The notes beneath the pieces are model-generated. The model ran no database searches and had not been told where the DNA came from. It worked only from the letters and a program-made list of their open reading frames with translations. Source: Asterochloris sp. CNOR1 (taxonomy: Eukaryota > Chlorophyta > Trebouxiophyceae > Trebouxiales > Trebouxiaceae). From it: a DNA stretch of 64,000 nt. Below, in pieces: positions 111 to 64,000 of this stretch; within the stretch, counting starts at the first letter, position 1; every line of letters begins with the position of its first letter. Location: positions 310,001 through 374,000 of the forward strand of contig OZ017749.1 in NCBI GenBank assembly GCA_963969365.1, in the 5' to 3' direction. Both the position numbers and the translations under genes were made by a program.

Positions 111-1702
111 ACGGTTTTGTGCCTGTTGCAGATGTCAACACCGAGCTCGACGAGCAGGTGGTGCTGAACGAGGTGGTCATTGACCGGGGTGTCTCCCCCT
201 TCCTGTGTAACCTGGAGTGCTACTGCGACGGGAACTTTGTGACCCACGTGCAAGGTGATGGGCTGATTGTGGCGACCCCCACAGGGTCCACAGCCTACAA
301 CCTGGCAGCAGGGGGTTCCATGGTACACCCCCAGGTGAGTCTGTCATGAGCAACTCAATGTCTGGCTGCAGTGGGATCCATGGTGGGGGAGCCTTGAGGG
401 GCGCATGTGCTGTGCCCAGCCTGGTGCTCCGGCGCTGTGTTCAACGCTTGCTGAGCTCATGCTGAGCAAGGTGGCCTATGTGACAGCGGACGCTGCTTGG
501 TGAGGCTGGTTTCTTGACAGGAGCCTACCTGGCTGCAGGTGCCAGGCGTCCTCTTCACCCCCATCAACCCCCACTCGCTGTCTTCACGGCCGTTGATCCT
601 TCCAGAGTCCATCCAGATCCGTGTGCGGGTGAGCTCTCACTCCGCTGCCTGCTGCAGGAGCCACCCAGGCTGCCTGCTGCAGGAGCCACCCAGGCTGCCT
701 GCCTTTCCTAGTCACAGCCACATGCATGTCTAGCAGCCTCTGCAGAGAGTATTTTGCCCCCAGCCTGCTGCTGCCCCGCTCCTGAGGCAGACAGGACGGC
801 AGGGGCCTGGAAGTTAGCTGTGTGCCTGACAGACACAAGGTCCTGACTCTGTCTGCCTGCAACTGCCATTCACTGAGGAGGGTCGGCAGGGCCACAGTTC
901 AGACCTGGCTGCCCAACACACATGCCCCCTTCCAGGTGCCTCATGAAGCAGAGTAGGGGACTGGCGCCAATGTTGGTTGCAGTGACTGCCAGTGCTGCCA
1001 CAGGCTACTCCAGACAGGCAGCCAATGATGCAGCTGCTACCCGTGCTGCATACAGGCCCTTGACTGCCAGGCTGCACCTGTGCAGGTGCCTCACGACAGC
1101 CGGTCAGAGATGTGGTGTTCCTTTGACGGCAAGGACCGCCAGCGGCTGGCCCCTGGGGACTCTGTGTTGATATTCATGTCGCAGCACCCGATCCCCACCG
1201 TCTGCAAGCTGGACGCAAGCCACGACTGGTGAGCTGCACTTCCTTCGAGCAGCCATGAGGCAGCATGGGAGGCCAGGCTGTGGGGGCAGGCTGTAGATCC
1301 CAGCCCTGTGTGTGCGTGCCTGACTCAAGTGAGCAGCTGGTCCCAGCATAGGCAAGGGCACCTGTCACGCTTCCAGCACCGGCTGGTGAAGACGACGCTG
1401 CGTACCGTGCATGGCGTGCTCCACCAAGAACCAACAGGCACTGATTGGCTGCAATCCTTTGGCGTCCCCTGCAAAGCTAGGTTGCAGACGGGCACTGATC
1501 TGTAGTGCCGCTCTGCAGGTTCCTTAGCATGTCAGATGGACTCCACTGGAATCTAAGGTGAGCCTGCTGCGTGGCACCCCTGCTTGTCCAGCCCTTCACG
1601 CCAGCCCCTGGGTGCACTGCCCAGCTGGCAGGCATGCTGCGCTGCACTTGCCAAGCCCCGCCGCCCTGCTGCAGGAAGCGTCAGGCTGGAGCCGGGAAGT
1701 AG
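111..1702 (+). CDS. NADK: NAD kinase, C-terminal part (5' end outside window)
   Basis: ATP-NAD kinase makes NADP from NAD and ATP. Five exons are visible: 111-334, 539-628, 1086-1228, 1519-1557 and 1675-1702, and all phases join cleanly. The reading frame gives LNEVVIDRG, then the glycine-rich core [20 protein letters not shown], then [25 protein letters not shown], and a tail ending [13 protein letters not shown]. This is the order of the catalytic C-terminal half of plant and algal NAD kinases. The penultimate exon could stop at a TGA that overlaps its donor (1559-1561). Splicing at AAG|GTGAGC to a 28-nt terminal exon restores the family-like NxRKRQ tail, so I prefer that end. The N-terminal half, with the GGDG motif and any calmodulin or plastid-targeting region, lies upstream of the window, so plastid versus cytosolic isoform cannot be decided. 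Confidence 0.9.
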
Positions 1703-2792
1703 TCCCGTTTCCGTCCAGTCCTAGAATGCAGCTGCAGCGCTGCATGTCTCAGTTCAGCCAACCATTCGCTTGCTCAGGGGGTTTAGGACCCCCTGCCAGC
1801 ACTCAGTAGACTAGAGCTCACTGCTTGCTAGTAGCCTGTACGTCTGACAGCTCTGTGGCGGCCAAGTCATCCATAGTATCAGGTGCATGGGCCATGCCCC
1901 CCTTTGGACACAGTCAACAGCCTTTGCATCAGCCACTCCTCTATCAACTGTACCAACCGCATCAGCCCACAGCACCTCTTGTTGACTCACATGACTGCAT
2001 GAGTCAATCCGCACTGCTATTTGTGTTTGATGAGCGTGCTACATAGAACCTTGGTTTTGCTCAGGCCTCATACTGCCTGTCTTTATTGAATGCTTGCCAT
2101 TAAAGACCTGCAATACCACAATGTGGTTGACTGTCACCAGTGGAGAAGGGAAGGATAGTGAAGATCTGAAGCAGCTTTGGGAACCATGATGGACCGACAT
2201 GGGACTGACATCTGATTCATAGTGAGGTGCAAGCAACACTGACAGATTGACAGCAAAGAGGGTTGCCAAAGTGTGTCCTGGCTGGAATAGGTGGCTGTGA
2301 AGGACACCAAGCTGGGAACGGTGCAGCAAGATGTGCTGTCTGCCTTCTGTTGCTGAGCCGCAGAGGCAGCGTGTTCTAAAGCTCTGCTGCTGCTGCAATG
2401 TGTTCCACCACAGCCTCAGGTACTTGAAGCTGTCCATGCGGGTTAGCACCCTCCAGCCGTGCATGAGTACCCTGCAGGGGGTTGTCATGCGGCTCACAGA
2501 TCAGCATCTCAGTCTTCCCAGAGCTGTGAGACGCCTCATCTTGCGGATAATCTGCAGCACATCAGGCCTGCATTGTGGCCCTGTGGTCTGGTGCTTAGTA
2601 TGGTGAGATCACCTGGGTGAGTCAGTAGAAGCCATGCCCTCTGCACCCAGCCGGATGCTCTCCAGCAGCAGTTTGTCAAGATCTGCTGGGGCCTGCCGTC
2701 CACAACATTGTTTGATCAAAGTAACCTTTTCAAACCCCTTGGCGACCTGCACAACAGATCTTGCTCGACGAGGCTTGCCAAGTCTAGCCACC
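1703..2792. other. intergenic, no gene recognised
   Basis: This 1.1-kb spacer between NAD kinase and the GDP-mannose pyrophosphorylase start should hold the NADK 3' UTR and the next gene's promoter and 5' UTR. Open frames exist on both strands (for example 2039-2497 minus), but none gives a recognisable family or convincing splice structure. The strong start context GCCACCATGA sits at its right edge. Confidence 0.5.
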
Positions 2793-5700
2793 ATGAAAGC
2801 ATTGATTCTTGTTGGCGGGTATGGAACGAGGCTTCGTCCTCTGACATTGACGGTGCCGAAGCCGATTGTGGACTTCGCAAACAAGCCAATGATCATCCAT
2901 CAGATTGAGGTGACCATCCGTGAAGAGTCTGGACAGTTACTTCAGCGCTGACCAACAGCCCAACTGTCGGGGAGAGGGAACCTGAATGCCAGCATGGGTG
3001 CCACTGCAGGCACTCAAGAATGCAGGATGCACAGAGGTGGTCCTGGCAATAAACTACCAGCCCAAGGTGCGCCTCATGTCCAATGTAGATTTGTGCAGCA
3101 TGCAGCCTCCAGGAACTGCCAGTTGGCATACTGTGCAGCATGCGGCCGCAGCAGGTGATGAGTGGCACACATGCTGCGCCACCACCTGAGGCGCAGGACT
3201 ACATGCAGTCTTGGTGAGGCTGATGCTTGCGGCTCTGCAGGTGATGATGGACTTCCTGCGGGAGTGGGAGGAGAAGCTGCAGATCAAGATTACCTGTTCA
3301 CAGGTCAGCTCGGCTGGCAGCAGGTCGCCATGAGCAGGCTGGCAGGACAGGCTTTGGCCCGCAGGCCTGATGAGGGCACCGGCCTGGCTGCTGAGTGCAG
3401 CGCTGCATGGCGCCAGGCTGCCTTTGGGAGGCCGCTGGGGATGCAGCATGCACACAGCCCAGACCGTGACGCTGCCAGATGCATTCGGGGAAGAAGGCTT
3501 TTCTGGCTGCCCATGGTCAGCTCGGCCCTGTTGCTGCCTCCAGGCTGCTGCTGCCAGCACTGTCTGGCAGTATAGCTTGGCATCAGCAGCCCTGGCTCCT
3601 GAAGCAGCTGGTGCCCTGCCCGCAGATGCACTGCTGAGGCAGGGGCAACAGCCCTTGTATGTCTGGCAGCAAGCTGCTGTGAGCATCAGCCGGAAGCACG
3701 GCAGCGGTCAGCACCTCCTTCTTGGCATGTTTGATGCATGAGCACTGCTTGAGGCGTCACAGCAGCACAAGGTTGCTCATCTCAGCTCGTCCATCCTGGC
3801 AGGCACCGCCTCATCCTGTTTGCCGCCTTCGGACTGCTGACGGCGCCTGTTCAAGCATCCGGTCTGGCCTGCACACAGCCTGTTGCTGCCTCTTCCAGTT
3901 AGGTGCCTTCACTTGGTCACTCGGCCAGCCAGGTCTGCAACCAGCCTGCCGGGCCAGCCTGTACCCTCTTCAGACTGCAGCGCAAGCACACACTCTGCAA
4001 ACCTGCTGCCACCCCCAGGGAAAGCTGCCCCCTTAGCTGGTCGGCTCCTTTTCCTCAAGGCTGTCGCAGCTTCTGGAGCCAAAGGGTAGTATCCTGGCAG
4101 GGCCGCAGCCACAGAGGATTGGGTGGCCAGCAGCAAGCGCCTGGGTGCTGATGCCGGCTCTTGTCTTGCTGCAGGAAAAAGAGCCAATGGGGACAGCAGG
4201 CCCCCTGGCTCTGGCACGAGACATCCTCGATGACGGGTCCGGCGACCCCTTCTTTGTTCTGAACAGGTGCGGTCATGATCGTGAGCCGCACCTCTGGCAG
4301 GTCCTGCGCTTTCAGGCGGTCTCGCTGTTGTGTAGACTGCTTCAACTCGTGGGTGGGGGCTGCCTTGTGCACCAGCGTGCATGTAGTGCCCCCCTGTTGC
4401 CTTTGCTGTGCGGGGCTGATAACACAAATGTTTGCAATTAGGTCAGCCTGCACCACTGCACGCGCACAGGAGGCCACACAACAATCCATCACCGCCGTAA
4501 ACAGCAGCCGCTGGCTGGACTGTGCCTCACAGGCTGTCCTTCTTCTTCCCTTTATGCAATGCTCTGATAGCGGCTGCCTGCAATACTTCTGCTCAGCAGC
4601 GGCCAGGCATGCATAGAACCCAGTTCATATTTAGGGTCGCAGCGGTCTGTTGCTGGCTGCAGTGACGTCATCTGCGAGTTCCCCCTGCGGGAGATGCTGG
4701 CATTCCACAAGCAGAAAAAGGCTGAAGGGACCATTCTCGTGACCAAGGTGAGCACTCAAGCTGCCGCTGGTTGTGTCACTCAGGGGCAGACATCAGCAAC
4801 AGAACCTCGACAAGAAGCTGTCGGGAGCACCTCACATGCGCTGCATCAGTGTCACTGGCATTGCGCCTGCCAAGGGACTTGCTCAGGCTGACATGACACC
4901 TGAAGATGCGCTGCACTGCTGTCGCCGACAGTGCGCCTGCCAAGGTGTTTGCTCAGGCTGACATGGCCCCTGAGGATGCAGGGAGAGGCATCACTGAGCT
5001 AGGCTCTGCAGCTTTGCTTTGTGGCATCTGTGAGCGCTGTGGCCGTCGTCAGTTCTGGGCGTGCACACCAGCCATCGCACCTGTGCTGCACAGTCCTCTG
5101 CTTACCGCCGTAATGCTGTCGGCACACTTGCCAGAGAGCGCTGCTGCTTTGGGGAGCATCCAGCCGCAGCGTAATGGACCTCAGGGCAGAGACCTGCCTG
5201 CTTGAGGCCCCTGTGCTAGTTGTCAAGGTGCTAGGCAACCATCATGCTCTTTTGTCAGCCACATGATGTGCTTCTGCAGGTGGAGGACCCCAGCAAGTAT
5301 GGTGTGGTGGTGATGGATGGGCAGGGGGTGGTGGAGCGGTTTGTGGAGAAGCCAAAGGTGGACAGGCTGGCTGTCTTACTCTCACATGGTGGAGCATGGG
5401 TGTCCAGCGCAATGAGTGCAAGTGGTCATAACAAGCTGTTCGTGCATTTTGGAGCCTGTCTGATATGCTGGCTGCTCTGCCGTGTTGCATGCTGCAGCAG
5501 GTGCTTGTATGCTGGCATGTAGCCGCTGCTGGGCACCACCATGCTGCTGGCAGGTGTGCTCAGAGCCCTGCAGAGTGAGAGTGATGGCACAGGCGCGCTG
5601 AGGGGTGCTTGTGTGTTGCTGCAGACGTTCCAGGGGGACAAAATCAATGCCGGCATCTATGTCCTGAACCCTGAGGTTCTGGAGCGGATTGAGCTGCGCC

Positions 5701-7279
5701 CCACCTCCATCGAGAAGGAGACCTTCCCCCTCATTGTGCGGGATAAGCGGCTCTTCGCCTTTGTGCTCCAAGGGTATTGGATGGACGTGGGGCAGCCCAA
5801 GGACTACCTCACAGGTGGGTTCAGCTGTTCTGCTGCACAGGACTTGCTTCTTTTTCCAAGACACCACGCAAACCTGGGGGCCGCTAAAGGACTATCTCTT
5901 GGGTGGGATGGGTACTGAAAGAAACTTTTGTACAGCCTCATTGTCGCAATTATTTCAGACATACAATAAGCGCTTCGACCCTGCCTGCTGTCAAAGTTGG
6001 ACTGCTCTGGACCTGTCTTGCACAGCCGTACGGCATCCTAGGCTGCTGCAAATTTCCAAATGAAACAGGTGGTTTCCATCAGCAAGGCACGGCCATCGTT
6101 GCCGCTCCCGTATTTGCCTGCTGTCATTGCTGTGTTGGTCAATTCCCTGCTGGAAGTTGTCGTAACATACTTGATCACATTACACAGCCTTCACCTGGAT
6201 GGACCATGTCTTCTCTGCACCTCTGTTGCAAGCATTGCTGGACCCTCAATTGAGACCAGCAAATCTTGCATGCATTTTCTTCCATTGACTGCTTACTGCA
6301 GCGTGCCTCCCTGCTGCAGGCCTGGCGCTACATCTGGACAGCATCAGCCGTAGTCACCCCGAGACGCTGGCCAAGGGGCCCACCTTCATTGGCCACAACA
6401 TTGTACACCCCACAGCCAAGATTGGCACCGACTGCGTCATAGGCCCAGACGTGTCCATCGGCATCGAGTGCGAGATCGGAAACGGCGTCCGCATCAGCAA
6501 CAGCGTGCTGCTGCACAGAGTCAAGGTGGGCTGGGGATCAGGGCGTCATTGCGTTTAGCACACTTATAGGATCCAGAGCCTGTATAACCAGCACATTTTG
6601 CTGCCTAATTAGCTGCCCAGCAGGGCCTGGCAATGCAGCAACTCCCACAGTGTCCTGCTGCACACAGTTGAGGACCAGGCTTGGCAAAGGCTTAATGCAG
6701 TGCTGGTCTCTATAGGCCCCCTGAGGGGCTGAAGCATGCGTACAAGCTCTAAAGCACTGACTAGAGCTGCCTGGTCAGATCACCCTCATCCCTCAACTTT
6801 GCGCTGCGCTGCGAGTGCCCAGCTACTTCAGTGCCCAAGACTTTCCTGCAGCTGACTATACTGAGCAGCCCAAAGCTGCGGGCGTGCAGGTCTGGCAGAG
6901 CCACTGGCCAGCCATCTTGCCCTGCGTTGCAGGTGCCCAGCTACTCCAGCGCCCAAGCTGATCTTGCAGCCATCACAATCAAGCAGCCTTGATGTCTGCA
7001 TATCTGAGCAGCCTCAATGGCCTAATGGCATAGGGCTTGTAGGTCAGTCGCCAAAGATAGTCTGCCATGCTGCCGATGCAGGTGCACAACTATGCAAGGG
7101 TAGCAGACAGCATTGTGGGCTGGGGCTCCTCCCTGGGCAAGTGGTCGCGACTCGAGAACAAGGCAGTTGTGGGGGAGGATGTTCATGTCAACCCAGAGGT
7201 GTTTTTGAATGGGGTCATTGTGCTGCCCCACAAGCAGATCAAGGAGACCATTCTGGACGTGGGTCAGATCATCATGTGA
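2793..7279 (+). CDS. VTC1: mannose-1-phosphate guanylyltransferase (GDP-mannose pyrophosphorylase)
   Basis: Makes GDP-mannose from mannose-1-phosphate and GTP in the cytosol, feeding glycosylation, cell-wall mannan and ascorbate synthesis. Nine exons: 2793-2909, 3010-3066, 3241-3303, 4175-4266, 4663-4747, 5280-5357, 5625-5814, 6320-6525 and 7082-7279. All phases are consistent and give 361 residues, the same length as Arabidopsis CYT1/VTC1. The N-terminal nucleotidyltransferase signature [19 protein letters not shown] is at residues 6-24. [20 protein letters not shown] lies mid-protein, and [13 protein letters not shown] ends the catalytic domain. The C-terminal hexapeptide left-handed beta-helix ([20 protein letters not shown], then [20 protein letters not shown]) is complete and ends in IIM. 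The start has a near-ideal context, GCCACCATGA. Convergent with the TrmB gene. Confidence 0.96.
4863..4985 (+). repeat. two-copy tandem repeat, GMPP intron 5
   Basis: Two copies of about 69 bp begin GCGCCTGCCAAGG, at 4863 and 4932, and share TTGCTCAGGCTGACATG and the CCTGA(A/G)GATGC stretch. They lie in the intron between exons 5 and 6 and do not resemble either flanking exon. Confidence 0.7.
6815..6990 (+). repeat. two tandem copies resembling the exon 9 acceptor, GMPP intron 8
   Basis: Two copies about 118 bp apart start GTGCCCAGCTACT at 6815 and 6933. The second is preceded by an intact TTGCAG acceptor, and both end in GAGCAGCC/AAGCAGCC. They resemble the true exon 9 start (GTGCACAACTATGCA at 7082, after GATGCAG) and read like a decayed version of its VHNYA coding. 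Confidence 0.55.
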
Positions 7280-7866
7280 GAGTGTTCAGGCCGGCACCCC
7301 CAAACTTGAGCAGTGTCAGAAGCATACCCAGCACCAAGGCCTTTCAGTGTCCTGCAACCTACCCCCCAGCCCTTGACCACCACTTTGGACCAAGACTGTG
7401 ACTGACAAGGTTTCAACCATAGCCATAGCATACTGACACTGAAAGTACCCATCGCTTCACAGGTTGCTCCATGCTGGAGCCCAACACATGCTCTGTTCAA
7501 TCTGCTCGTCCCTTGCACCAATGAATGGCACCTAAGTATGGTAGTCTACTGTCAAGCATTTCCTGGCATTGTTGGCGAATTATGTCAACCGGGAGAGTCC
7601 TTAATCCAGGCAGGAGCCGAGATCAGGCCAACAGCTGAGCCAACACAGTGGCCCAGCTGGTGCACATGAGATGTGTAGTGCACAACACAAATCTGTGCCA
7701 CAGCAGTTCTGATGGTGGAGCTGCTGTCACCCAGCCGGTCCAACTCATTTGTTCCTTCATTCAGTCTGTTGGCTGTTGAGGTCATGCTGTGGAGTGTATC
7801 CAAAGTTCACCCTGAAGCAAGTTGTACACTCCTTCATCCAGTCTGTCAGCTGTTGAGCTTGTGCTG
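7280..7866. other. convergent intergenic spacer with a local duplication
   Basis: The 3' flanks of GMPP (+) and TrmB (-) meet here. No gene is seen. At 7751-7799 a segment (TTCCTTCATTCAGTCTGTTGGCTGTTGAGG...) is repeated at 7831-7880, where it overlaps the TrmB stop codon. The TrmB terminus has therefore been duplicated about 80 bp into the spacer. Confidence 0.5.
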
Positions 7867-10800
7867 TCAAGTATGCGTGAGAAGTACCCTGTAGACTGGC
7901 TTGCCAAGCTGCAACGTGTGCATCTCCATCTCGGTGGGAATGCCCTGCACCAGGCAGGAAAGCTTGACAAGATGTCGATCTGTAGAGCTGCAGCTGCCTT
8001 ATTATGCTGTGCAGGCATCACTTGAGCACAGAGCTGGCCCTCACGCTTTAGACATCTGCTTTGGCAACCTCTCACCAAGGGATTCTGGCTCAGCCAGCCA
8101 TGCTGTGCCCAGGATGACTTCCAAGACTGCCTGTCTGTTTTGTCAGGGGCCTCTGACTGTGTCTCAGCCTCAAAATTTGAGATGCTGTCTGAAACTGCCT
8201 GGGGAGTAAGTGGCTCATAGGAATGGCTGCTGGACTCAGCCGCCAGGGGCTCTGGCTGTGGGCCAGGGACACCGGGATCTTGGCTGAGGTGCTGAGCGGG
8301 GGAGCTGGATTCAGAGGCGGCCTCCCTGCTGTCGCGCTGTGCCGGGGAGAACCCGGTGCTTGCACACAGCTCAAACTCGTCTCGCATGGCTTCCGCAACC
8401 TGCAGGCCCTGGACATAGTTTGTGGGCTGAGACTGGCGATGGTGCTGTCCTGTGCATTGAGATGCAGATCATGGCAGGCACAAGAGCACCGCGCTGTCCT
8501 CCTGGCGATGGCGCTTTGTCACTCGCCGTGGATGGCTGCTGCGGCAATGGCACAAGCTGAAGTATGCTGCGCAAGCGCAGACGACTGAGTCAGAACGGGG
8601 CTGATGCTGGCATGGCCATCAGCTAAAACTGCTGATTGTCTGGGCTCCACACATGCTGGCATGGCGACCAGCTAGAGCTGCAGATTGTCTGGGCTCCACA
8701 CAAACCCTGCAACAAAGGGACGTCATGCACTGGCCTGGTAGGAGTGTGCATCCCAGGCACCACTCCACATCGTCCATGTGCATTCGTTCAACAAGTGTAA
8801 GATTCACTGTAAGTTTGGAGGCCATGTAGGTGCTGTTTCAAACTAGAAACAGACATCTCAGCAATAGCTCTGTGTTGTGAGTTGCTACAGTGGTGGGTAA
8901 GAGCTTGATCAAGGCCCCATTCATTGTAAGCATCAGTCCTGGGGGCACCAACCTGGCAGGACTGAGCACCCCAGGGCAGGGGCTCACGAAGGCTGGGGCT
9001 CACATCTCACAAAGGCAGGGGCTCACAAAGGCAGGGTTCACAAAGGCTGTGAGGCCCAGGAGGCAATGCTGGGTCTTGTTGGCCCAAGCGCAGCCAAGCA
9101 GTGTGGCTCACACTGGAGACCAGGCCTGACTGTGTTTGTGCAGCATGCCAAGCAGCTGCTTCTCGCCGGCGTATCAGACCTGGCCACACCCAAAGCAGGG
9201 CCCCTGTCTCACTCAGGATCAGCCCTGGGCGAACCATGCCCCTTTCAACAACCTCACTGAGGCTCTTGATGCCTGCAGCTCACCTCCATGACATCCGACT
9301 GCAGAAAGACCAGGCCGCCGGGTGCCAAGCGCCTGTCGATTGCTTCTATCAGCTGGGGCTGCACCACTCTCCGCTTCTTGTGTTTCTTCTTGAAGTGGGG
9401 ATCTGGGAACTGCAGGTCACAGGCTGTCTGGAAGGTTGAGGTGCCTGAAGCAAACACTGGTTGGATCTGCCCTGACAGGTCTTGAGGCTGCCAATTGGTT
9501 TTGCCCAAGTGGGGCAGCTATTCAAGCCAAGTACCAGAGAGGTCCTCAAGCAGCCACCCAGCAACAGGCGGCACAGACAGGCACAGTAGCCCCTGCAGAC
9601 CCAGAATTGGTCTCTACCAACAGTAACAACCAGGACTTGATGAGCCACGGTCATCAACAAGCAGGAAGCTGCGCAAAAGCCCCCATGGACCCCAACAAGC
9701 TGCAGGGAACCAGGGCAGCCTCCCAGGCACAGCGCAGCAGCCCCTCCAGACCTGAAACACCCGCAAGGGGCTTCCCTGCAGTTGCCCCGCAGGCACAGCA
9801 CAAAGTCCACCTAGATTGGGAACAGTCTTGAGAGACCCTCAGCAGCCCTCTCAGGGACAGCATAAGAGCCAACTTAGCTGGTGAACAATTTGCAGGAAGC
9901 CTGAGCAGTCCACCCTCAGGCACAGCACAGATCCCCACCCAGATTGTGAGCAGGCTGCGTGGGGCCAGCATAGCCCTCCCAGGCACAACACAGCAGCCCA
10001 CCTGGGCCGTGACAACCTGCAGGGGGCCAGGGTAGCCCCATCAGGCACAGCACAGCAGCCCACCTGGATTGTGACAAGCTGCAGGGGCCCAGGGTAGCCC
10101 CTTCAGGCACAGCACAGAACCCCACCTAGAGTGTGAACAGGCTGCATGGGGCCCAGGGTAGCCCCTCCCAGGCACAGTACAGCGGCCCACCTGGATGGTG
10201 ACAAGCTGCAGGGGCCCAGGGTAGCTGGACAGCATGCTGTCCAGGGAGACTGTGGCGTTGGCAGTGTGGAAGTGCACGCGGCCAGCGTGGGGGGTCAGGC
10301 GCGCCCACTGGTTGCCTCTGTCCACCAGCTGCAGCGAGGGAGGGCAGCGGTGGGCGCCAGCATGCAGCAGCAGGCATGCTTCAGAACTGCAGCAGCAGGT
10401 GTGCAGGAGCAGGTGTGGTTCGGAGAAGGATGTGGACAGGGCAGCAGCCAAGCATGGAATGGGGACTCTGCGTGCTCCCAAGGGAGCCATGTGACATGCA
10501 AGTCAACAACCCATGGCTCTAACAGTTCTGTCAGCACAGAGTCTCAGAGCAGGGAGCAGGGACGGCATGCTGGGGTTGTTCGGGAACTTCAGAGGCCAGA
10601 GCATGTCTGAGGGTCGGCATGAGCCCGTGGCAGATTGGCCAGTCTCACCAGTGCAGCCATGCAACAGACGTTTCTCCGTGGCAGTCTTGAGCCAGTCTCA
10701 GCCAGTGCAGAGATGCAGAGCAAACATGCGCCAGATCTAGTCTGTGCCAGTGCAGACGTGCACCAGGGCCCACCTTGTGTCTGATGTCCACGCCAAGCAG

Positions 10801-44911: not shown

Positions 44912-44975
44912 GGGGCTGCCACTTGAGGAGTGCGACCGGATGTACCCTATAGCCGTAACCTAATGACCCGGGTGG

Positions 44976-44991: not shown

Positions 44992-45006
44992 CAACGCAGA
45001 CGCCGC

Positions 45007-46188: not shown

Positions 46189-46525
46189 CGCATCACCCTT
46201 GCGGGCAGGTATCCAAGCTAGAACAGTGTTATGTAGCACCCTCTTGGCCAGCAGCAGGAATCACACCCCGCGACTGCATCGCTGCTTTGCAGTGTGGCAG
46301 CTTGGCAGGTCCTTTTGGAGTCACCAAGTTTTGGGTTACAGTTGTTGCAGGCTTGGCAGGCTGATCAGAGAGGGGATTGCTCTACATGTTGCCACATGTG
46401 TACTGTACAGTAGCTGTATGCCTGCCTTTATGTACCAGTGCAGCAATCAGTAAAACATCTATGAAACAGTCATTGGGCCCCCAGTTGTGGCCTGCTACAC
46501 CAGAGAACTCGGAAGTTGAGCACAC
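46189..46525. other. spacer
   Basis: The 337 bp between the putative TAA at 46188 and the stop of the ubiquitin-like gene. Nothing recognised. Confidence 0.4.
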
Positions 46526-48820: not shown

Positions 48821-51800
48821 ATGCCAGACACACTTGGTGCTAGGCCACTCTCTGGTCAAGCGCGCCTGCCCCACATTCTCATGGTCAGCGCACTCTTCTT
48901 CATCGTCCTGGTCTACGTAGGCAACAGCCTTGCGGCGCCTGGCCTGCAGCAGGAACCTGTTAGGAAGGCGCACTCCCATTCAGCTCAGCATCATGCAGTC
49001 AAGCATGAGGTAAGCTGACACTTGGGGCAGTGGCCTTGGAAGGCACGGTGCAGTTGTGGGCCAGGGCACGTGCTCCTTTGGGCTTCAACAGAGGCAGCAT
49101 CAGGCAGGGGTCAGAGGCGAGGGCAGGCTCGAGAGAGGGGCGCCACCACTTCGGGCAGCTGCAGGCGAAGCCCATGTCTGTCATGGGGACTGGCACACTG
49201 GCTGCCAGAAGGCCACTCAAACGCAGTGCGCTGTCACCTGCTGTGCTGCTGCATCATTCAGCTGTGCATGAACCACAGTTCGCACCTGCCATGCGGCCCT
49301 GAGCTCGGTCCTGCCCCCTTTGCTGGCAAATTTGTTCAGGGTGTGAAGGATGCCGATACACATCTGTCAGCCCCCTGTGGGCTGCACCATGAACTTCTTT
49401 GCCAGATCTGAGCCCTGCCTGCCACCTTTGCAGGCAGTTCACTTCAGGGTGTGAAGCCTGACGGTGCACATATGTCAGCCCCCTGTATGGCTTTGCCCTG
49501 AAAGGTTGCTTGGCCAAAATTGAGCACCGCATGCCCCTTTTGCAGGCAGTGCAGCTTGTGAATGCTGTCGTGGCACGTCTGGCAGCCTGCCACTGTCTTG
49601 GCACAACCTCGCATGGGGGCGCCATAGTTGCTTGAGTCACCAATTATGTTAGTATGCTTTTAGTGTCTCCTCAGCCAGTGCCTGCTCCTTCCACAGGCAG
49701 TGGAGGGCGTGGAGGTTGTCTGGCAGGGGGTGCCCAACCCCAAGGGCATTCTCATGCTGTTCCACGGCTGCCGCCACTCTGCCACGGACTACTTCCCCCA
49801 GTCTGACAGCTGCCCTCACTGCCTGGGTGAGTCCTGCTACCCTGCGGAAACCTTCAGCAGCATTTGAAAAGACTTTGCACATTGTGTCAGGCGTTGTCTG
49901 AAGTGGAGTGTCACACGGGGGCCAGCCGCCCACTGTTAGGCTGTGATGCTCTCTAAGCCTGGCCGCAGGCCATCTGTCAGGGCCATGCAAGCTTGCAGCT
50001 GCTGCCTCTCAGTTAAAGGCCCTGCACTTGGAAGATTTTTCTATTGCTTGAAGCTAGTCTGCTACGCATGCTGCGTCAGTGGCACTGACTGAGCTCAAGA
50101 TGAGGATCACAGACCCATGGTGACGAGGTCAGATCCGCCATAGACACAGCCCTGCTGAGCTGCAGGCTTGTCAAATTCAGGAAAGTCAGTCATGTAACAC
50201 GGAGTTCGCAGCCTGGATCGGCGGCACTCCATGCTGTGCATCCCTCCCAGATGAGGTCCCATGATGCCAAGTCTTGGCCTGACACCAACACCAGGCAGCA
50301 TGCCCCTCTTCTGTGCAGGCCTGCCAGAGGAGGGGCGCATGGTGCAGGCAGCTCTGAAGAGGGGGTACATCCCGCTGGCCTTCAGCAGCTGGGATCGGGA
50401 CGGCATGCAGTGCTGGGATGTGGACTGGCCACCAGAGACCAGCCGGGACATCAACAGGGTGTGCCCAACCAGGGCTTGTTTTGGGTTCTCGCTAGCAGCT
50501 GCTGATGGGCTGCCTCAGCTGATGGGCTGCCTCAGGCAAGGCAGCCCCGTCTTGCGGCAGTTCACTGCGGCAGCGGCTGCTTCTGCAATTCTTTTCTGCA
50601 CATGAAAGCTTGCTTGGCATCTGAGGAGCTGCGCTACCCTTTACAAAATTTCTCTGCACATGATTGCTATGTTGTTAGCAATTGGGGAGCTGGGCTGCTT
50701 CTAAGCTGTCTCCCTGCACATGATCGCTGTCTTGGTGGGCATCTGGAAAGCAGCCGAGCTTTAAATAAAGGTTGTCTGCACATGAGCGCTATCTTGTTGG
50801 CACCTGAGGAGAAGCTTCCTGCCTGCAGGTCACCAAGGCGATGCAGGTCCTGCAGCATCGGGAGGGCTGGGAGAGACTCCCCCTGTATGGGCTCGGCATC
50901 TCCTCCGGGAGTGCCATGGTGCTCGTGCTGGCCCACAGGCTTGAGATCCAGGTGGGGGCATAAGGGCATGGTCTTCAGGGGTACCTTGGTCCCCCTGCTG
51001 GCTGACATGCAGGTGGAGGCATGCAGCCATGGCTTTCAGGGGTACATTGGTCCTCCTGCTGGCTCACATGCAGGTGGAGGCATGGAGCTCAGGGGTGCCA
51101 TGGTACCCCTGCTGGCTCACAAGCTGCAGACTCAGGTGAGGGCATGCAGATGTGGGTTTCAGGGGGTGTCTTGGTGCTCCGGCTAGCCCACATGCTGCAG
51201 ACGCAGGTAGGGTCATGCAGCCATGGTCCCTTCATTTGGCGACCCTTTCACTTGAAGGGCCCCGGGGCCTGAGAAGGTGTTGCTGGCAGAGACCAAGCTC
51301 CAACTTACCTAGGTCAAGGCCCATATCAGTGTGGAAGTGCACTGGGTCACGGTGCTGCTGATGCTGCCGCACACACTCCTTGGCCGCGCTTGTTGGAGCA
51401 CCTTGACATTGGACACTGATGCACCCTCTCGTTGACCAGCGGCAGCCTCCCTGTCCAGCACCTTCCCCACCGTGCGAGGTGCGGGCACCATGTGACTTGT
51501 GTGTTGCCAGACCATGGGTGGGCCCCCATAGTACTTCCCTCCCCAGCCAAGTGCAGGCAGTCTGTGACAGCTGCCCTGCTGCCCTGCTGCAGGGAGTATG
51601 TGCCCAGATCATGGGAGTGCCGCCATCCTTCCTGGCCAGCCCGTCCCAGGGCAAACAGACCGCCACCTGGCCCTACCCGCCCACCATATTTGTGCACATG
51701 GCACGGGACGAGTCCACCAGCAGAGCGGTGCAAGCTGACATGGAGCAGCTGCACAAGCTGGTGAGCTCCTCATACAGTGCGCCCCTGCGTTCTACATTGC

Positions 51801-53040: not shown

Positions 53041-53399
53041 AGTGGACTCGCCAGCTTTGAGTGTACAGAATGCATATGCTTTCATATAATATCATTGAAA
53101 GATGCCCGGTCATCCACCACCTCTGTGGTCGGCTGCTGAATATGAGGCAGGACCGTGTAAGACAAGAGGCTTGATGGAGCCTGGACTCATGAGGGCTGAG
53201 AGTCCAGGTTGTTCAGAGCTAGGTGGGGCCGCATGATGCACCATAAGAGGGTGTCAGAATAGCAGAAAGGGGGAGAGGAGCGCCCACCTGCATGCAGGCG
53301 CACAGAGCAGCCAACTAGGTACTGCCATACTCAGGTCCAAGCTGAAGGGCAGGACTGATTCTTGACTAGGAGCGGACTGATAGGGTGGGGCGGGGCCGA
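53041..53399. other. convergent spacer
   Basis: The 3' flanks of the hydrolase (+) and START-like (-) genes. No gene recognised. Confidence 0.4.
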
Positions 53400-56266: not shown

Positions 56267-56425
56267 GAAGTGTCACGGCCTGATGGGGACAACTGCTCAG
56301 CTGTCCGTAAGAGGGGACAGCTTTGCCTCGAGATCAGCATCTGACATTATTCATAAAGATAGTATTTGGTGCCACTCTAATGTGTGGAGTGCCTTCGAGC
56401 TGGGTACATGTTTACCGGACTCCGT

Positions 56426-59400
56426 TTAGCCGGCAACATTGGCAATAACCCTTTGACTTTTCGATGCCACATGCAACAGCTGCAGAAACTCGTCTGCACC
56501 ATCTGTGAGGTCCTTGTCTGCCTCTGCCAGGACCTGGGCAATCTCTGCAAGCTGTATCTCACTGAGTTCGCCCTGCTCCAAGAGGATGCTCTGCAGCTCT
56601 GTCAGCATGGTTTGTGCCTGCATCCCCAGAGGAGCATGATGAGCTCTCTCTCTTTAACAAGTGCCTGTGCTGAACTACCAGGCAGGCATGCAGCAGATGC
56701 ATCATGGCGTGGGCGCTGCTTGCACCCCACCTGGTGCAGAGCTTCAAAGTAGGCTCTTGGGCAGCAGTTGCACGTGGAGCCTGACACAGATGCATCAATT
56801 GGTTCAGGCAGCACTTGCACTGCAACCCCAAGCATAGAGCAGGCTGCACTCACTGGATAGCCGTCCGCGATGGCATCAGAGATGGCAGTCTGCACGCTGG
56901 CAAAGATGCCGCTTCTGCAGGCAGCCAGCAGGCCTGCCAGCACGGACTGCGGCACTGCTCCTGCCACGTCCAGGATGGTCTGGGGCTGCACTTCAAGGCC
57001 CTGCACTTGAGAGGACGGCCGCCTTCAACACAGTTTGCCTGGCTGCGCAACAAGTTGGCCCAGCTGGTGCAGCTCAGACCCTGTCAGCTCGGCCAGCCAT
57101 TCAAACATCAACAGATGGCTCAATTCAAACACAATCACACCACCAAGAAAAAGTCTTTGACCCGTTATTGAGTGACAGTTGGCCTTTTCCAGCAAGCATC
57201 AGTGTGCCAAGCGTACCTCGATCCCCCCCAGGTCATGCCAACGCAGGCAGGGCAACCACCGCTGACCTGCAGCCGCACAGCGCTCTGCAGCGTCGTGATG
57301 GCCTTGCGCAGGTCGCCGCCAGACACCTTGACCAGCGTCTGCAGAGACTCTGGGGGCAGCTGCACGCCCTCCTCTGCAGGAAAGGCAGACACTTGTCACT
57401 GTGTCTTGTAGTGCCAGAACTCATGAGTCAATTGGCTCAGAGCAGGGGCCCGCTTCCACTCATGCTCAACCCTTGGTGGGTCAGACTTGATCCTGGGTTG
57501 GTTAGGAGCAGAACCCCGTCGCTGGGTAGAGCTGCCTTAAATCTGGTGATGCATGGCATTTCGATGCCCATACTTCATGCAAGCATGGGCCAGCATGTAC
57601 AGGTGGGGCACCTGCCTACCTCCCCTGCAGCAGCCAAATAGCGGTAGCATGTACAAATGTCCAGCACCTGGCAGCATTGCAGACGTCAATGGGGCCTCTG
57701 GGGGCCGCGGCTGCAGCCCCTTCGCAGGCTGCAGGACTGCCGCCAGTGCCCAACAATTGATTGCAGTGCAGTTCTCCTGGCACATCAGCTTGCAGGCAGC
57801 ACATCCAGACAGGCAGTGCTGGGCGCACAGCACAGCTACTGGATGGCTGAGTCTCAAGGTGGGAAGCATGGCCACCTGCCAACCACAGATCTTGCCGCAT
57901 GTGCTTTGGCATGGGCACTAATGATGGCGCCATGCGGGGGACTGCACTGAAATGCAATGACAGGCTGCGGCGCGTTACTGTTACATAAATCTGTAAGAAT
58001 GCCCAGCGGCCAATGTGTCAGCGTCCCAGCTTCAGCAACGTGCTGCAACTTGCAATTCAGGATGCCCCAACCGAGACATGGGCTAGAGCCTTTGCCCCAG
58101 CTGAGGCCTGCAGATGTGCTGCAAACAATGCATGCAGCACTTCTAGCTGCAGACCCCCTTTGACATGAGCCAGTTGTGAAGCAGCGGGCAGTTCATGCTC
58201 CCATGCAGGGGGCTCTGTGTACGTCCAGCTGTGCTGCAAACATGCACGCAGCCCATTTGCATGGACACAAACTGAGCACTCCCTGCGTGCTGCAGCCTTG
58301 TTCCGGATGGTGATGATCGGATGGCTGGCTGTCTGGGAGCAGGAAATGTGGGCTACATGTGCTGCAGCCTACTTCCTTGCAGTTGAGGGCCCCAGGCCTT
58401 TGCAGTGGCCGAGGCTCGTAGTCATGCTGCCCACATGCAGGCAGCGTGCCCAGCTGCAGACTCCTTGCCTTGGCAGATGTGCTGCAGCCGGTTGTCCATG
58501 ATGCTCCCATGCAGGGGCTTGAAGCGGAACTTGGCACACCGCGAAGCCAGGGGCTCGATGATGCGGGATACATAGTTGCAGATGAAGATGAAGCGGGTGA
58601 CCTTGGAGTATGCCTCCATTGTTCGCCGCAGGGCATTCTGGGCGTCCTATAGGCAGAAAGCAATATCATGAGGGCAGCTATATACTGAGCTCTGGACGAC
58701 ATTCCAGGGCCACCTGCATGCCTGGGCAGAGCATCCTGCACATCAAGCACGCACAGAGCAGGGCTTTATCGTTGGCCACAGCGCGTTGTGGGTGTCCTGT
58801 GCGGCTGTGCAGTGAGCCTGCCTGAGAACTTGGCTGAAAGATATCTACTTTCTGCCAGGTAATGCCAAGCCTACAGCAAGGTCGCAAACTACAGCGCGCA
58901 CAAGCTGCTCGCTGAGATGAGGGGGGCAGTCAGTCTGCTGGCACCAACAATGTGTCAGTTTCAAAAGCCTGCAGCAAATTCAGAGCACGCTCACTGGGAT
59001 GCAGACGCAGTCAGCTTGATGGCCTCTAAATTCTTTCAGTAGCCTGGGCGCTAGCTGCTGGAGCAAGCAACTTGCTGGCATGAGCAGGCCAGACTCCAGG
59101 CAAGTGGCTGGGTCTCAAAGGCCACAGGAAATGCTAGGCAATCCTCCAGGTGCAGCTGGGATGCTTGCTCATTGAGTGCACAAGGCAATCATGTAGCGGC
59201 TGTTCACTCTAGGCGCCTAGGATAGATAGCTGACTTTTGCCTGCTACTCCTGGCCCGCAACTGTTGCAATGTGCTGCTGCCCTTTCTCACAGCCACTCAC
59301 CCCAGTCATGGAGTCTGCCTCATCCAAGATGAGCAGCTTGTAGGGCGGACAGGGGTAGCCTGCTACGCCCTCCCCCACAGAGGTTGCTGCAAAGCCCTTG

Positions 59401-60302
59401 ATCTTATTCCTGACCACGCTGATGCCACGCTCGTCACTGGCATTCAGCTCCAGCACACGCGTCTTTACCAGAGTTGGCCTGCAGCAGCACGTAATTGCTT
59501 ACAACTGATCACTTTGATACCATGCCCATCACTGGCATTCAGCTCCAGCACATGCGGCTCTGCCAGAGACGGCCTGCAGCACATCTGTGACTTCGTGGGC
59601 TAATGGGTTTTGGCTAGGGCTGTGACAACCCCTGCAGACAAGTGCGGCAGGCAGCAAGAACCACCCATGCTGGGCTTGTGGCAGCAGCGCACCCAGGATG
59701 GGCCTACATGGTGTCTTGGATCTTGGCAAGGGACGCACATGGCCCCTTCTTCCCCTTCCTGGCAGTTGCACAACACCTCCAGGACAAGTCGGCTGGCTGC
59801 ACACTGCTTGTAGCACTAGCACGTCCTGTGAACATCGCTGAGACATTCTGATGGGCAAAGCCGGCTGTGCTGCCACTTGCAGTGGCCAGCCGGCATGGCA
59901 TCTTCTGCAGCTCACCCAAAGAGCTGCCGAGCCACTGCCAAGGCTGTGGAGGTTTTGCCGGTGCCGGGCGGGCCATAGAACAGCAGGTGCGGCAACTGCA
60001 GGCAATGCGGCGCATACTCAGGAACTTGATCTGCAGGTGTTCACGCTTGGCAGAGTGCCCTTGGCAGCTCTGAAGCCAAGCACATGACGTTGCAGAAGTG
60101 TGCTCACGTTGGCAGTCTGCATGGCCTTCTGCAGCGTCTGGACCACCTCCTCCTGATGTGCAACATCTTCCACTGTCTTGGGCCGGCTGCATTGCAGCTA
60201 TCACCGTCAGTGCCTTTGCGGTAACACAGCAGGGATTGCTGGGGCGCCAATGCAGCATGACACTCACTACTTGTCCACCCAGGGCTGGCCTGTTGCGGTC
60301 AT
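56426..60302 (-). CDS. RFC4: replication factor C subunit 4
   Basis: Small AAA+ subunit of the clamp loader that opens PCNA and loads it on primed DNA in the nucleus. Exons: 60302-60268, 60186-60108, 59995-59916, 59478-59301, 58646-58469, 57373-57267, 57000-56854 and 56617-56426, giving 331 residues. RFC boxes in order: [20 protein letters not shown], Walker [14 protein letters not shown] (about 43-55), [20 protein letters not shown], Walker [33 protein letters not shown], the SRC motif in [18 protein letters not shown], and [16 protein letters not shown]. The C-terminal collar ends [14 protein letters not shown], which points to RFC4 rather than RFC2, 3 or 5. The exon 5 donor is GC (AAG|GCAAGG). 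Divergent from the DDX54 gene, with only about 270 bp between starts. Confidence 0.96.
59425..59590 (-). repeat. duplicated exon 4 acceptor/start, RFC4 intron 3
   Basis: The exon 4 start with its acceptor (plus strand CACTGGCATTCAGCTCCAGC then ACACGCG...GGCCTGCAGCA, 59436-59487) has an intronic copy at about 59530-59582 (CACTGGCATTCAGCTCCAGC then ACATGCG...GGCCTGCAGCA). The copy has lost the frame further in. Confidence 0.9.
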
Positions 60303-60573
60303 GACAGCGTGATCAGTTGAATGCCAAACCTCAAAACATGCCAACAATGTTTGACGCAGATCACAAGTGAACTCTGCTGCTGAGGTGTAGCATCACATCC
60401 GTCACCAAACAAGATCTGCAGCGTGGTCACACGGGGATCCAGATATGATAGACGAGTATGCGCTCCTCTTGGCGCGGTCCGCAGAACCTTAGGGTTGCAC
60501 TCACCAGTCTGGTGGAACAATGCAGCACAAAGACAGATGCACTGCTCTTGGATTGCCTACATCTCAGAAAAAG
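60303..60573. promoter_or_regulatory. short divergent promoter region, RFC4 / DDX54
   Basis: Only 271 bp separate the RFC4 start (minus) from the DDX54 start (plus), so both promoters and 5' UTRs must share this stretch. No specific factor sites were identified. An in-frame upstream Met at 60520 would shorten it to 217 bp. Confidence 0.45.
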
Positions 60574-63500
60574 ATGTCGTCTAACTCAGATCTCGATGAG
60601 AAGGTGGCAGGCACAGCAACTGGAGGGTTTCCCACAGAGAGTAGTGCTGTGGAATTCGGGTGGACAGATGACCAGCCCCTTGCTGGCAGGAGGGCCAAAG
60701 CCGCCAAGGATAGGCGGCAGAAACTCAAGCCTGGCAGTTTTGGTGAGCAATGCAAATTGATGGCATGGCTGCTGCCAATGACAGCGTGCTGGTCCATCTG
60801 AAGCAGCCCCAGCATCCATCTCACCATATTAGCACAGCTGCTCGACACTTGAATTGCAGACACAGACCTTTAACTGCTGCATTCTGGATCTACTGTGTAG
60901 GAGACTCTTACGCAAACCCCTGTGCCCTGCAGAAACATTGGGGCTGAGCGTGGAAGTGCTGCGGGGCATCAAGCGGAAGGGCTACCGGCTGCCAACGCCC
61001 ATTCAGCGCAAGACGCTGCCCCTGATACTGCAAGGTCAGGATGTGGTGGGCATGGCGCGGACTGGCTCTGGCAAGACCGCAGCATTTGTCATCCCCATGC
61101 TCGAAAGGTGAGCACTCTACTAGCATGTAGCTCTGCGGAGTGACTTAAGCAAGATGCTCCCTTGACTGATGGGCTATGCAGATTGTAATCAAGACAAGGC
61201 GTGAGTGGTAAGCAAGTCTGTAGGGCCAGGCTGCAGAGCAAGCCAGAGGTTGGGGCGTGGGCCATCATGAACTGCCATTGTGCCCTCCAGGCCAACACTG
61301 TGCAGTCTGGGAACTGCAGTCTGGCAGCCGCCTGCATGCAGCAGCCGGTGCAGCCAGCACAACATGGCAGCCTTCTGTTGCAGGCCCAGTCGCAAGGTTG
61401 CTGCAGCCACAGGCACTGAGTTGCTGGCTGAAATCCCAAGGCTCTGCCCTGCTCTCACGATGATGCCTCAGTGTGGGCGCCTTCACGCTGCAGACTCTGC
61501 AAGCGCTCTGCTGCAGCCTTCCCCCAGACCTCTGACGTTCAGCCTGCCTTGTGCCCTGCAGGTTAAAGGAGCACTCTCTCAAAGCGGGCGCCCGCGCAGT
61601 GCTGCTGGCCCCCACTCGCGAGCTGACCCTGCAGACCCACAAGGTTGTGAAGGAGTTGGGGCGCCACACCAACCTGCGCACGGCTGTCCTGGTGGGAGGG
61701 GACTCCATGGAGGCACAGTTTGCTGAGCTGGCAGCCAACCCCGACATCATTGTGGCGACTCCAGGTGGGGCCCTTTGAGACGCACTCGAAGTAGATCTGC
61801 AGGAAAACACATGAACGCAGTCATTTGTGCAGAGCTGCCGGCCAACACAGACCACATTGAGGCCCTCCAGGCAGGGCACTATGAGCGAGGTGGGTCGTGA
61901 AGCAGCCCAGGTGAACATTGTTTGCAGAGCTGGCACCCAGATCCGGCATCATCGTGGCTGGTGCAAGGGCGGCTTGGTGGCAGCTGGAATGGGGCCTTGC
62001 AAACGCCTGGTTACATGCGCTTGCCACAGCTGGCAGGTATCTCAGACTGTATTCGTGCAACCCCAGGTGCAGTACTGCAACTAGCATGTTGGTGGGGCCC
62101 TGTGGGGCTGTGCCGTGCCCATCACTCTTAGCTGCTGACCTGGCAGGGCAGCTGATAAGCTCCTGTTCTAAGCATTTGCAGCTTGTGCATGGCCAGTGGC
62201 TCTACCTTACCAGTAACAGCTGTGCTGTGCAGGACGTCTGATGCACCACCTGAAGGAGGTTGAGGGCATGAGCCTGCGCACGGTGGAGTTCTGCGTTTTT
62301 GATGAGGCCGACCGCCTCTTTGAGATGGGCTTTGCTGCCCAGCTGAGGGAGATTCTCAGCAAAATGGGCTCTCAGCGGCAGGTGAGCTCATAATGGGATG
62401 TGCAAGCTGTTCACTGTGAACACATGCAGCACAGGCGCCACATGTGTCCGGTGTTTGGATTGAGCAGACCTTCTCATCTGGGACGTCTTGCAGCTCATGG
62501 TCTTGCAGCTCATGATGCCAATAGTCAGATGCATGCTGCTGTACCTTCAATCTGGCTAATGATGCAAGTGACATACTGCTGTGCTGCAAACAGGACACTT
62601 TCTGATGTGTCAGGGCGACACATCATGTTGCCAGATGCTTCTTGCCTGACCAGTGCATGGCTGTCACTCATCAAAGGGCTTGTAACTTGACAGCCTGCCA
62701 GCATGGCACCTTATGCCACTGGCTTGCTGCCTGCAATGCTGCTGTAGTTGGTGTCATGCTCTCTGCATCCTACGAGGTTGGTACAGCAAGGCTGCTGACA
62801 CGCGTCCACCTGCCGGACTGCAGACGCTGCTATTCTCCGCCACCATGCCCTCAGCACTCCACGAATTTGCCAAGGCTGGGCTGCGGGATCCAGAGATGGT
62901 GCGCCTGGACGTGGAGTCGCGCATCTCCCCTGACCTAGGCCTGGCCTTCTTCTCTGTCAGGTTCGCTGCGGTGCCTGTGCTGTCAGGCAGACGTCCCAAC
63001 TTGGTCTGATGGATGGCACTGTGTGCCACTGTGGCCTACTTGCGCAGCGTATCTGCCTGAGCATAGAGTGGCGCCTTTCCTGACTGCTGACTTGCCTTCT
63101 GTCCAGTGAGGCCTTGCTGCCAGAGGCTGAACCTGTGAAATGGGCCTTGGCGGGCAGCAGGGTCTGTGCAGGACTAAGGCAGCATGCCTCCTCCTCCGGT
63201 GCCATCATTGGAGGTCCAGACTCTAAGCAGCTTCTAATGGGTCACCCTGGCATGGGTCTACTCGATGGTCCAAGTCGGCCCAGCACTGATGGGCTTGTGG
63301 GCTTAGCTCAAGTGCCTGCTCGTGCAGGCTTGTGACTGTCCCTTGACTTTGCAAGACGACTTGCTGCCTGTAGGGCCGAGGAGAAGCTTGCAGCCCTGCT
63401 GTGGCTGCTGCAAGAGGTCATCCCGGCGGGGCAGCCCACCCTGGTGTTTGCTTCCACGCGGCACCACGTGGAGATGCTGCACGCCATTCTGGAGGGGGAG

Positions 63501-64000
63501 GGCGTGGCAGCTGCCTGTGTCTACGGTGCTATGGACCAGGTGTGCTTGGAGTTGCTGGCCTTTTTAAATCTGACGACATGCCAATCTGGGCGTGCATATT
63601 CTGTGCTCGCAGCCTGAGTCTACACTGCTGGTGACCCTGATGAGATGGGTTTTGCTGCTGGATGGGCTTTTGGGGTGCAGCGGCCTGGGAGGGCAGCCGC
63701 CTACGTCCATGATGATGTGGACCAGGCAGGTTGGTACCCCAACTTCGTTTGCAGGCTGCCCACAAGGACTGGATTGGCTAGTTGCCCCTCCGTCCTGCAC
63801 CTTTGGGACAATTGGGAAACTGCACTCTGCAGGCTGCTCGTAAGATCCACGTTGGCAAGTTTTCTGCGGGGCGGGCGCACGTGATGGTGGTCACAGATGT
63901 GGCAGCCCGCGGCATTGACATCCCACTGCTGGACAATGTGGTCAACTTTGACTTCCCGCCCAAGCCCAAGCTGTTCGTGCACCGCGTGGGACGTGCAGCA
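60574..64000 (+). CDS. DDX54: DEAD-box RNA helicase DDX54/Dbp10, N-terminal part (3' end outside window)
   Basis: ATP-dependent RNA helicase of large-subunit ribosome biogenesis in the nucleolus. Exons: 60574-60742, 60933-61107, 61562-61764, 62233-62381, 62824-62960, 63374-63539 and 63833 to the window end. Motifs in order: [11 protein letters not shown] (Q motif), [12 protein letters not shown] (I), [11 protein letters not shown] (Ia), [19 protein letters not shown] (Ib), [12 protein letters not shown] (II), LFSATMP (III), [14 protein letters not shown] (IV), [20 protein letters not shown] (V), and [15 protein letters not shown] (VI). The [16 protein letters not shown] wording separates Dbp10/DDX54 from other DEAD-box families. 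Two starts are possible: 60520 adds 18 residues; 60574 begins [10 protein letters not shown]. The C-terminal DBP10CT region is not in the window. Confidence 0.95.
61715..62080 (+). repeat. decayed exon 3 end/donor copies, DDX54 intron 3
   Basis: The exon end (TTTGCTGAGCTGGCAGCCAA, then CCCCGACATCATTGTGGCGACTCCAG|GTGGGG) is echoed at about 61824 (TTTGTGCAGAGCTGCCGGCC...), 61919 (TTTGCAGAGCTGGCACCCAG, then ATCCGGCATCATCGTGGCTGGTGC) and more weakly near 62025. The period is about 95-100 bp. Confidence 0.8.

Follow-up and report, generated by a model that had tools for sequence, protein, structure and literature searches.

Introns predicted in the genome of the green alga Asterochloris sp. CNOR1 frequently contain direct copies of the edges of their own flanking exons. 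The window that we analysed, a stretch of 64,000 nucleotides (contig 4, OZ017749.1, bases 310001-374000), was considered together with 200 kb of flanking contig 4 and 20 kb from each of contigs 1 and 9, giving a total of 304 kb from a 56.4-Mb assembly of 21 contigs; unless a smaller region is named, all counts below refer to this material. Here, 52 of 465 introns (approximately one in nine), distributed over 19 of 34 genes, hold a copy of their own exon edge. The explanation that we favour, with a probability of roughly 70%, is that local tandem duplication of ~60-250 bp units occurs without a target and is tolerated within introns and across splice junctions, the exon-anchored copies remaining recognisable for longest.

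A copy was scored where the last or first ~60 bp of a flanking exon gave a direct local-alignment match to its own intron with a score of at least 18. Such matches were found for 55 of the 930 exon edges bounding the 465 introns, as against 17 of 5580 shuffled pairs, in which the edges were compared with length-matched introns of other genes; donor edges (28/465; shuffled, 7/2790) and acceptor edges (27/465; shuffled, 10/2790) are about equally affected. In reverse complement there are only two matches (donor, 0/465; acceptor, 2/465; 2/930 in total), and comparison with another intron of the same gene likewise yields two (donor, 2/462; acceptor, 0/462; 2/924 in total). The copies are, therefore, direct, near and specific to the intron's own exons, as expected for local tandem duplication that crosses a junction. 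The excess is also evident in the well-supported subset, comprising the 206 of 465 introns for which both flanks are reliable, where 34 of 412 edges match compared with 11 of 4120 shuffled ones (P about 4e-27); moreover, for exons of at least 150 bp bordering these introns, the near edge matches in 29 of 237 cases and the far edge in 0 of 237. Copy-bearing introns occur in the window (12/88), in the contig 4 flanks (34/294), on contig 1 (1/43) and on contig 9 (5/40), and those of the window belong to five gene models on both strands. With the cut-off lowered to 16, which ~1.6% of null edges pass, the window count rises to 16 of 88 introns in eight gene models, of which roughly three may be due to chance. 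The first-pass annotation of this window had claimed that introns of many genes, on both strands, carry duplicates of their own junctions, and had called for a genome-wide comparison of introns with their exon edges against shuffled pairs; that comparison, performed here over the 304 kb, bears the claim out, with an excess at the own junction far above chance. It had further held that existing introns grow in this way; in support, existing introns do carry tandem duplications across their own junctions, and copy-bearing introns are longer than the others (median 457 versus 271 bp).

The gene models were obtained with a self-trained, two-strand gene-finding hidden Markov model, trained on the same 304 kb, and are predictions from sequence. 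It returned 34 genes with 300 or more coding bases, containing 612 introns with a median length of 262 bp, and the donor (CAG|GTGAGC) and acceptor (YTGCAG|G) consensus sequences are both sharp. For 471 of the introns both flanking exons are at least 30 bp long, and 465 of these retain at least 40 bp after trimming of the splice motifs. Seven of the eight predicted window proteins or pieces that were searched against Pfam gave matches, namely to GDP-mannose pyrophosphorylase, replication factor C (RFC), DEAD-box helicase, NAD kinase, TrmB-like methyltransferase, carbonic anhydrase and NRDE-2, and the eighth gave no Pfam match; the alignment of the GDP-mannose pyrophosphorylase model with its best PDB relative spans 324 residues and contains two gaps of one residue each. 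We consider the models to be good, although they probably include false mini-exons, some of which sit on the very repeats under study. Within the window, the gene finder has fused the genes of two proteins, a carbonic anhydrase and NRDE-2, in a single minus-strand model (27863-49363), such that the gene counts given here are lower bounds.

The pairs of which these copies form part are abundant, direct and local. On contig 4 (264 kb), there are 403 ungapped direct pairs with scores of at least 18 at offsets of 20-400 bp, whereas four far-offset bands of the same size hold 4, 0, 1 and 1. Introner elements would be expected to leave related introns at numerous unlinked loci; within the 264 kb of contig 4 compared, each far-offset band holds 0-4 pairs. 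After low-complexity filtering, 148 duplicate clusters remain in the 304 kb, of which 82 involve both exon and intron, 49 intron only, 10 exon only and 5 intergenic sequence, with 2 mixed. Coverage by duplicates has a modest peak at the junction: at the exon edge it stands at 12-13%, and 60-90 bp into the exon it is down to about 3%. Overall, the proportion of bases lying in local duplications is 9.3% for predicted introns, 7.6% for predicted exons and 2.9% for predicted intergenic sequence, the last figure resting on only 31 kb.

The form of the individual pairs is that of tandem duplication across a junction. Of 77 exon-intron pairs, 76 have an exon part that does not exceed the repeat offset, as a unit of that length dictates, and in 24 of the 69 pairs with offsets of up to 250 bp the intron flank is homologous too, where about 3.5 would be expected. 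Long units of high identity are present on contig 4 at offsets of 92, 130 and 155 bp. The flank homology is weak in the subset for which homology stops at the junction (6/29). The unit size of about 50-120 bp proposed in the first-pass annotation is too small for the junction copies, since the best-pair offset across the 82 exon-intron clusters has a median of 123.5 bp and a 10-90% range of 69-225 bp. Its suggestion that similarity decays with distance did not hold up either: the nearest copy is the best one in 9 of 15 multi-copy cases, with 7.2 expected. A cDNA origin of the copies, for which the copy flank was compared with the next exon, was rejected: of the 7 out of 67 cases above the 5% cut-off, six overlap the opposite exon itself, and just 1 of 52 non-overlapping pairs scores above 9.

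The cases in the window, with periods from Tandem Repeats Finder (TRF) and Smith-Waterman (SW) scores where available, are as follows:

9917..10225, minus strand: donor-crossing tandem array in the TrmB-like methyltransferase gene (Methyltransf_4, 2.8e-28), with about five copies of a ~62-bp unit made up of the end of exon 10191-10328 and a GTGGGC-type donor; TRF periods 62 (x5.0) and 127 (x2.5), best pair 95% identical at offset 127.
28340..28862, minus strand: donor-crossing array in the NRDE-2-domain model, with ~55/139-bp units that copy the end of exon 28800-28988 together with CACCAG|GTGAGC; 12 pairs, the best 89% identical at offset 139, and a copied donor intact at 28661.
59403..59581, minus strand: single acceptor-crossing duplication in an RFC subunit gene (AAA, 4.1e-17; Rep_fac_C, 3.1e-14), with a 95-bp unit that copies the start of exon 59301-59478; SW 38, 81% identity over 84 bp.
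50895..51228, plus strand: array over a predicted donor and acceptor in the gene lacking a Pfam match; 61-bp unit, TRF 61 (x2.4), 11 pairs, SW 26.
49310..49553, plus strand: donor-side copy at the first exon (49389-49448) of the same gene; offset 108, cluster best score 43 over 69 bp, SW 26.
44113..44410, minus strand: in-frame array adjoining the conserved part of the carbonic anhydrase; spacings of 48 and 69 bp (TRF 48 and 69), most units with CTGCAG.
23732..23964, plus strand: donor-crossing duplication at exon end 23772; offset 101, 83% over 46 bp, GTGAGC copied.
23347..23641, plus strand: acceptor-crossing duplication at exon start 23627; offset 247, 83% over 48 bp.
22509..22856, plus strand: acceptor-crossing duplication at exon start 22824; offset 301, 74% over 47 bp.
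37046..37313, minus strand: donor-crossing duplication in the NRDE-2-domain model (NRDE-2, 6.1e-50) at exon 37260-37427; offset 104, 80% over 55 bp, SW 29.
38008..38261, minus strand: donor-crossing duplication at exon 38224-38344; offset 203, 69% over 51 bp, SW 18.
61718..61973, plus strand: donor-side copy in the DEAD-box helicase gene (DEAD, 3.5e-47) at exon end 61764; offset 202, 74% over 54 bp, copied GT lost.
58606..58798, minus strand: weak acceptor-side copy of an exon start in the RFC gene; offset 150, 72% over 43 bp, SW 16, near noise level.
6491..6673, plus strand: weak donor-side copy of the end of exon 6320-6525 of the GDP-mannose pyrophosphorylase gene; offset 147, 75% over 36 bp, SW 17, near noise level.
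27098..27286, plus strand: comparison case, a wholly intronic array (TRF, 59 bp x3.2) that ends at the acceptor, the exon side not being shared.
4836..4979, plus strand: comparison case, a tandem repeat internal to an intron of the GDP-mannose pyrophosphorylase gene (70 bp x2.1; TRF and gene model).
34599..34865, minus strand: comparison case, an array (52 bp x5.1; TRF, gene model and pairs) overlapping the short predicted exon 34568-34617.

The first three entries are clear cases. The methyltransferase array does not appear in the window counts given above because its intron borders a mini-exon below the size filter. The intronic copy in the RFC gene retains the degraded coding sequence of a 10-residue motif of exon 59301-59478. 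In the helicase gene, the weak exon predicted between the exon end at 61764 and its copy is probably false, and the array at 34599..34865 is most likely intronic. The best Carb_anhydrase stretch (6.9e-31) begins at residue 131, after the array at 44113..44410, which could be put to coding or intronic use, in that the protein could gain from zero to several ~16-residue repeats through the choice of acceptor. Just upstream of the window, in the NAD kinase model (window coordinates about -1369 to -436), the conserved exon segment PFAMGSLGFMTPFAMDRMQ is repeated twice, and the region holds two tandem duplications, of 130 and 96 bp, that are almost complete and 91-93% identical. Intronic minisatellites, or variable number tandem repeats, are ordinary tandem arrays in introns, and several arrays of the window are of this kind; unlike these, many of the junction cases consist of a single old extra copy with no array.

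Under the explanation that we favour, duplication of ~60-250 bp units would be frequent in this genome and would have no target. It would be harmless inside an intron, and equally so over a splice junction, where the outer junction would still be usable and the extra exon edge would turn intronic; duplication in the middle of an exon would mostly be purged by selection. Because a duplication that is internal to an intron, or that crosses a single junction, leaves the message intact, many duplications must cross junctions by geometry alone, and given that the introns are only a few hundred bases long, these must make up a large share of those tolerated. A junction-crossing copy would also be recognisable for longer because coding selection holds one copy in place, whereas the members of an intron-intron pair drift at both ends. 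The mutational step itself would presumably be replication slippage or microhomology-mediated template switching, and the outer junction is presumably the one used in the mRNA.

The alternative that survives best is that duplication is promoted at the junctions, for example because the CTGCAG acceptor word seeds slippage, or because transcription or splicing exposes the junction; we regard this as possible, albeit unlikely. A mechanism aimed at exon edges was also the suggestion of the first-pass annotation. Several observations weigh against random duplication as a full account. Among all pairs with scores of at least 18, 68 of 129 cross a junction, as compared with 40.2 under random placement in the same intron. 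Simulations that include divergence, indels and exon conservation predict 37.9-41.7 of 129 in eight settings, and those using the shorter units of intron pairs predict 29.5-33.9 in six settings; when weak exons are excluded, 55 of 105 are observed with 37.3-41.6 expected in eight settings. Counting moderately supported exons gives 64 crossing pairs versus 44.9 expected of 124, and counting all predicted exons gives 60 versus 45.4 of 114. With the crudest exon set, an excess is seen even among young pairs, defined as those at least 85% identical (16 versus 10.1 of 37), and among strong pairs, defined by scores of at least 28 (28 versus 18.1 of 60). Additionally, the survival advantage in simulations is too small to reproduce the excess of old pairs, and the intron-intron parts of crossing pairs are less diverged (226/1430) than the exon-intron parts, which is the reverse of the simple expectation, perhaps owing to truncation bias. 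To these must be added that 286 of the 646 predicted exons are weak, in gene models predicted from sequence, and that the young pairs are so few that their ratio is compatible with a junction bias of approximately 1.5-fold.

The size of the excess depends, however, on exon annotation and on the strength and age of the pairs. With moderately supported exons, young pairs cross in 14 cases versus 11.2 expected of 36, a ratio of 1.25 with a 95% confidence interval of 0.74-1.82, whereas for old pairs there are 50 versus 33.8 of 88, a ratio of 1.48 (1.19-1.75). Similarly, the ratio is 1.20 (0.85-1.56) for strong pairs (26 versus 21.7 of 58) and 1.64 (1.27-1.98) for weak pairs; with all predicted exons, strong pairs number 22 versus 21.1 of 51. 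Further comparisons of young pairs give 10 versus 8.4 of 27 and 7 versus 6.5 of 20, and in the all-exon variant 11 versus 9.0 of 31, 7 versus 6.3 of 22 and 3 versus 4.1 of 15. Thus, there is an overall excess of crossing pairs, but it is significant only among old or weak pairs; young pairs, and strong pairs with the fuller exon sets, are consistent with random placement, given broad margins of error. A rise of the excess with age and wear would result if the exon copy were frozen and the pair consequently recognisable for longer, whereas a bias at birth should appear in young pairs too. Survival is, therefore, the better reading of the junction excess, although it is not proven, and it may account for the whole of the excess among old pairs. 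For the young or strong events, a targeted mechanism is not needed, although a mild junction bias may exist.

One feature of the acceptor side also speaks for promotion at the junction and against random placement. The homologous block ends within -5 to +9 of the junction at 18 of 33 acceptors, when simulations give 19-25% (P about 5e-5); donors show no clear stop of this kind (13/44; P 0.15). In the acceptor class that stops at the junction, homology continues into the intron flank in 3 of 17 cases and into further exon in 0 of 17, such that neither is clear. CTGCAG is the commonest hexamer of contig 4, with 939 occurrences in 264 kb, in part because acceptors end in YTGCAG. In intron and junction segments, the words TGCAG and CTGCA account for 10-13% of the final 6 bp, as compared with about 6% of bases overall, an approximately twofold enrichment. 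A seeding role for the CTGCAG word is possible; nevertheless, the enrichment is similar in intron-internal pairs, could arise where alignments extend by chance across so common a word, and is not seen at the segment ends of the 19 other clusters (1.5%). In a minority of acceptor-side copies, the breakpoint might be the splice acceptor itself, through slippage seeded at CTGCAG or through a process coupled to splicing or transcription, such that exon starts were copied without intron flank and, alongside ordinary tandem duplication, junctions were mild hotspots of intron growth; we hold this to be doubtful.

Once formed, the copies appear to be left to decay. Mismatches between exon and intronic copy are nearly even across codon positions (222/1009, 199/1010 and 273/1011, or 0.22, 0.20 and 0.27, in 77 pairs), indicating that the copies decay as noncoding DNA; in tandem exon duplication, both copies would keep coding constraint, which these rates do not show. 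It had been proposed in the first-pass annotation that selection retains spare splice sites, and retention of the copies as such sites, or as alternative exon edges, might seem to be favoured by alignments forced across the junction, in which the splice letters are well preserved (at donors, 26/29 for G and 24/29 for T; at acceptors, 22/24 for A and 19/24 for G), as well as by the carbonic anhydrase array, with its CTGCAG repeated at in-frame spacing. However, the letters seem well kept because alignments of this type select for them. When the junction is left out of the alignment, 7 of 22 scorable copies still carry the donor GT and 8 of 18 the acceptor AG (23 and 21 before unscorable rows were dropped), such that, relative to the ~0.65 expected under neutral decay, GT is low (P 0.001) and AG is indistinguishable (P 0.07); a looser count gives 9 of 28 and 11 of 20, respectively. 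On the donor side, the copies still match exon positions -12 to -5 at about 81%, and decoy donors may have been removed. Together with the even mismatch rates, these counts make retention as spare sites very improbable.

Tandem duplication near splice junctions has precedents. In the potato RdRp gene, a tandem genomic duplication over an intron-exon boundary made a new intron (PMC4974935). As there, a direct tandem copy of the intron end and exon start includes the splice site; however, whereas the potato event gave a new intron and added exon sequence, the copies here are mostly decaying DNA in existing introns of many genes. According to a review (PMC3443670), tandem genomic duplication is the only proposed route of intron gain that has been shown in vivo. 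In the Rogers-type route (PMC3443670; Gao and Lynch 2009, as cited), an AGGT-bearing exon segment is duplicated and its ends become those of the intron; the present copies share with it local tandem duplication near AG|GT, but differ in that the intron pre-exists and the duplicate rarely supplies the intron ends. That the introns themselves arose in this manner, a mechanism already in print, is exceedingly improbable: a few short introns would fit, with copies abutting the opposite junction in 1 of 65 and 3 of 37 cases, and in three introns the offset exceeds the intron length by 1-6 bp, but nearly all the other copies end short of the opposite junction. The short predicted introns (61-200 bp) in which the copy abuts the opposite junction, or the length is approximately that of the repeat offset, are either candidates for intron gain by tandem duplication or coding repeats that the gene finder has broken up, and are located as follows:

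Window, 28716-28799 and 50952-51012: short candidate introns.
Contig 4, window coordinates -13150 and 144700: short candidate introns.
L023, near 9007: short candidate intron.

Short insertions are often tandem duplications of neighbouring sequence (Messer and Arndt 2007, as cited in PMC2654908), and a general mutational source would be shared with these, although the units here are longer, at 60-250 bp, and many copies are still detectable. Among the matches listed, judged by title or the start of the abstract, we found no description of widespread own-exon copies in algal introns.

Finally, chance similarity, shared low-complexity composition or gene-finder error, to which the frequency of CTGCAG in this genome, the many weak exons and the mini-exons predicted on repeats might point, has next to nothing to recommend it, as the copies adjoin Pfam-supported exons and all four controls (shuffled, reverse-complement, same-gene and far-edge) come out close to zero, which refutes it for the strong cases.

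Overall, we conclude that a known process of junction-crossing duplication is acting here on existing introns, at high density, in a regional example with one unexplained feature on the acceptor side. Random local duplication, combined with selection on one of the two copies, already yields many exon-edge copies and provides a null model for exon-like sequence in introns; copies of exon edges alone are thus no evidence of a targeted mechanism. Such copies can also be mistaken for extra exons by gene finders. Moreover, with recognisable local duplicates in such numbers, this genome is well suited to measuring how introns lengthen.

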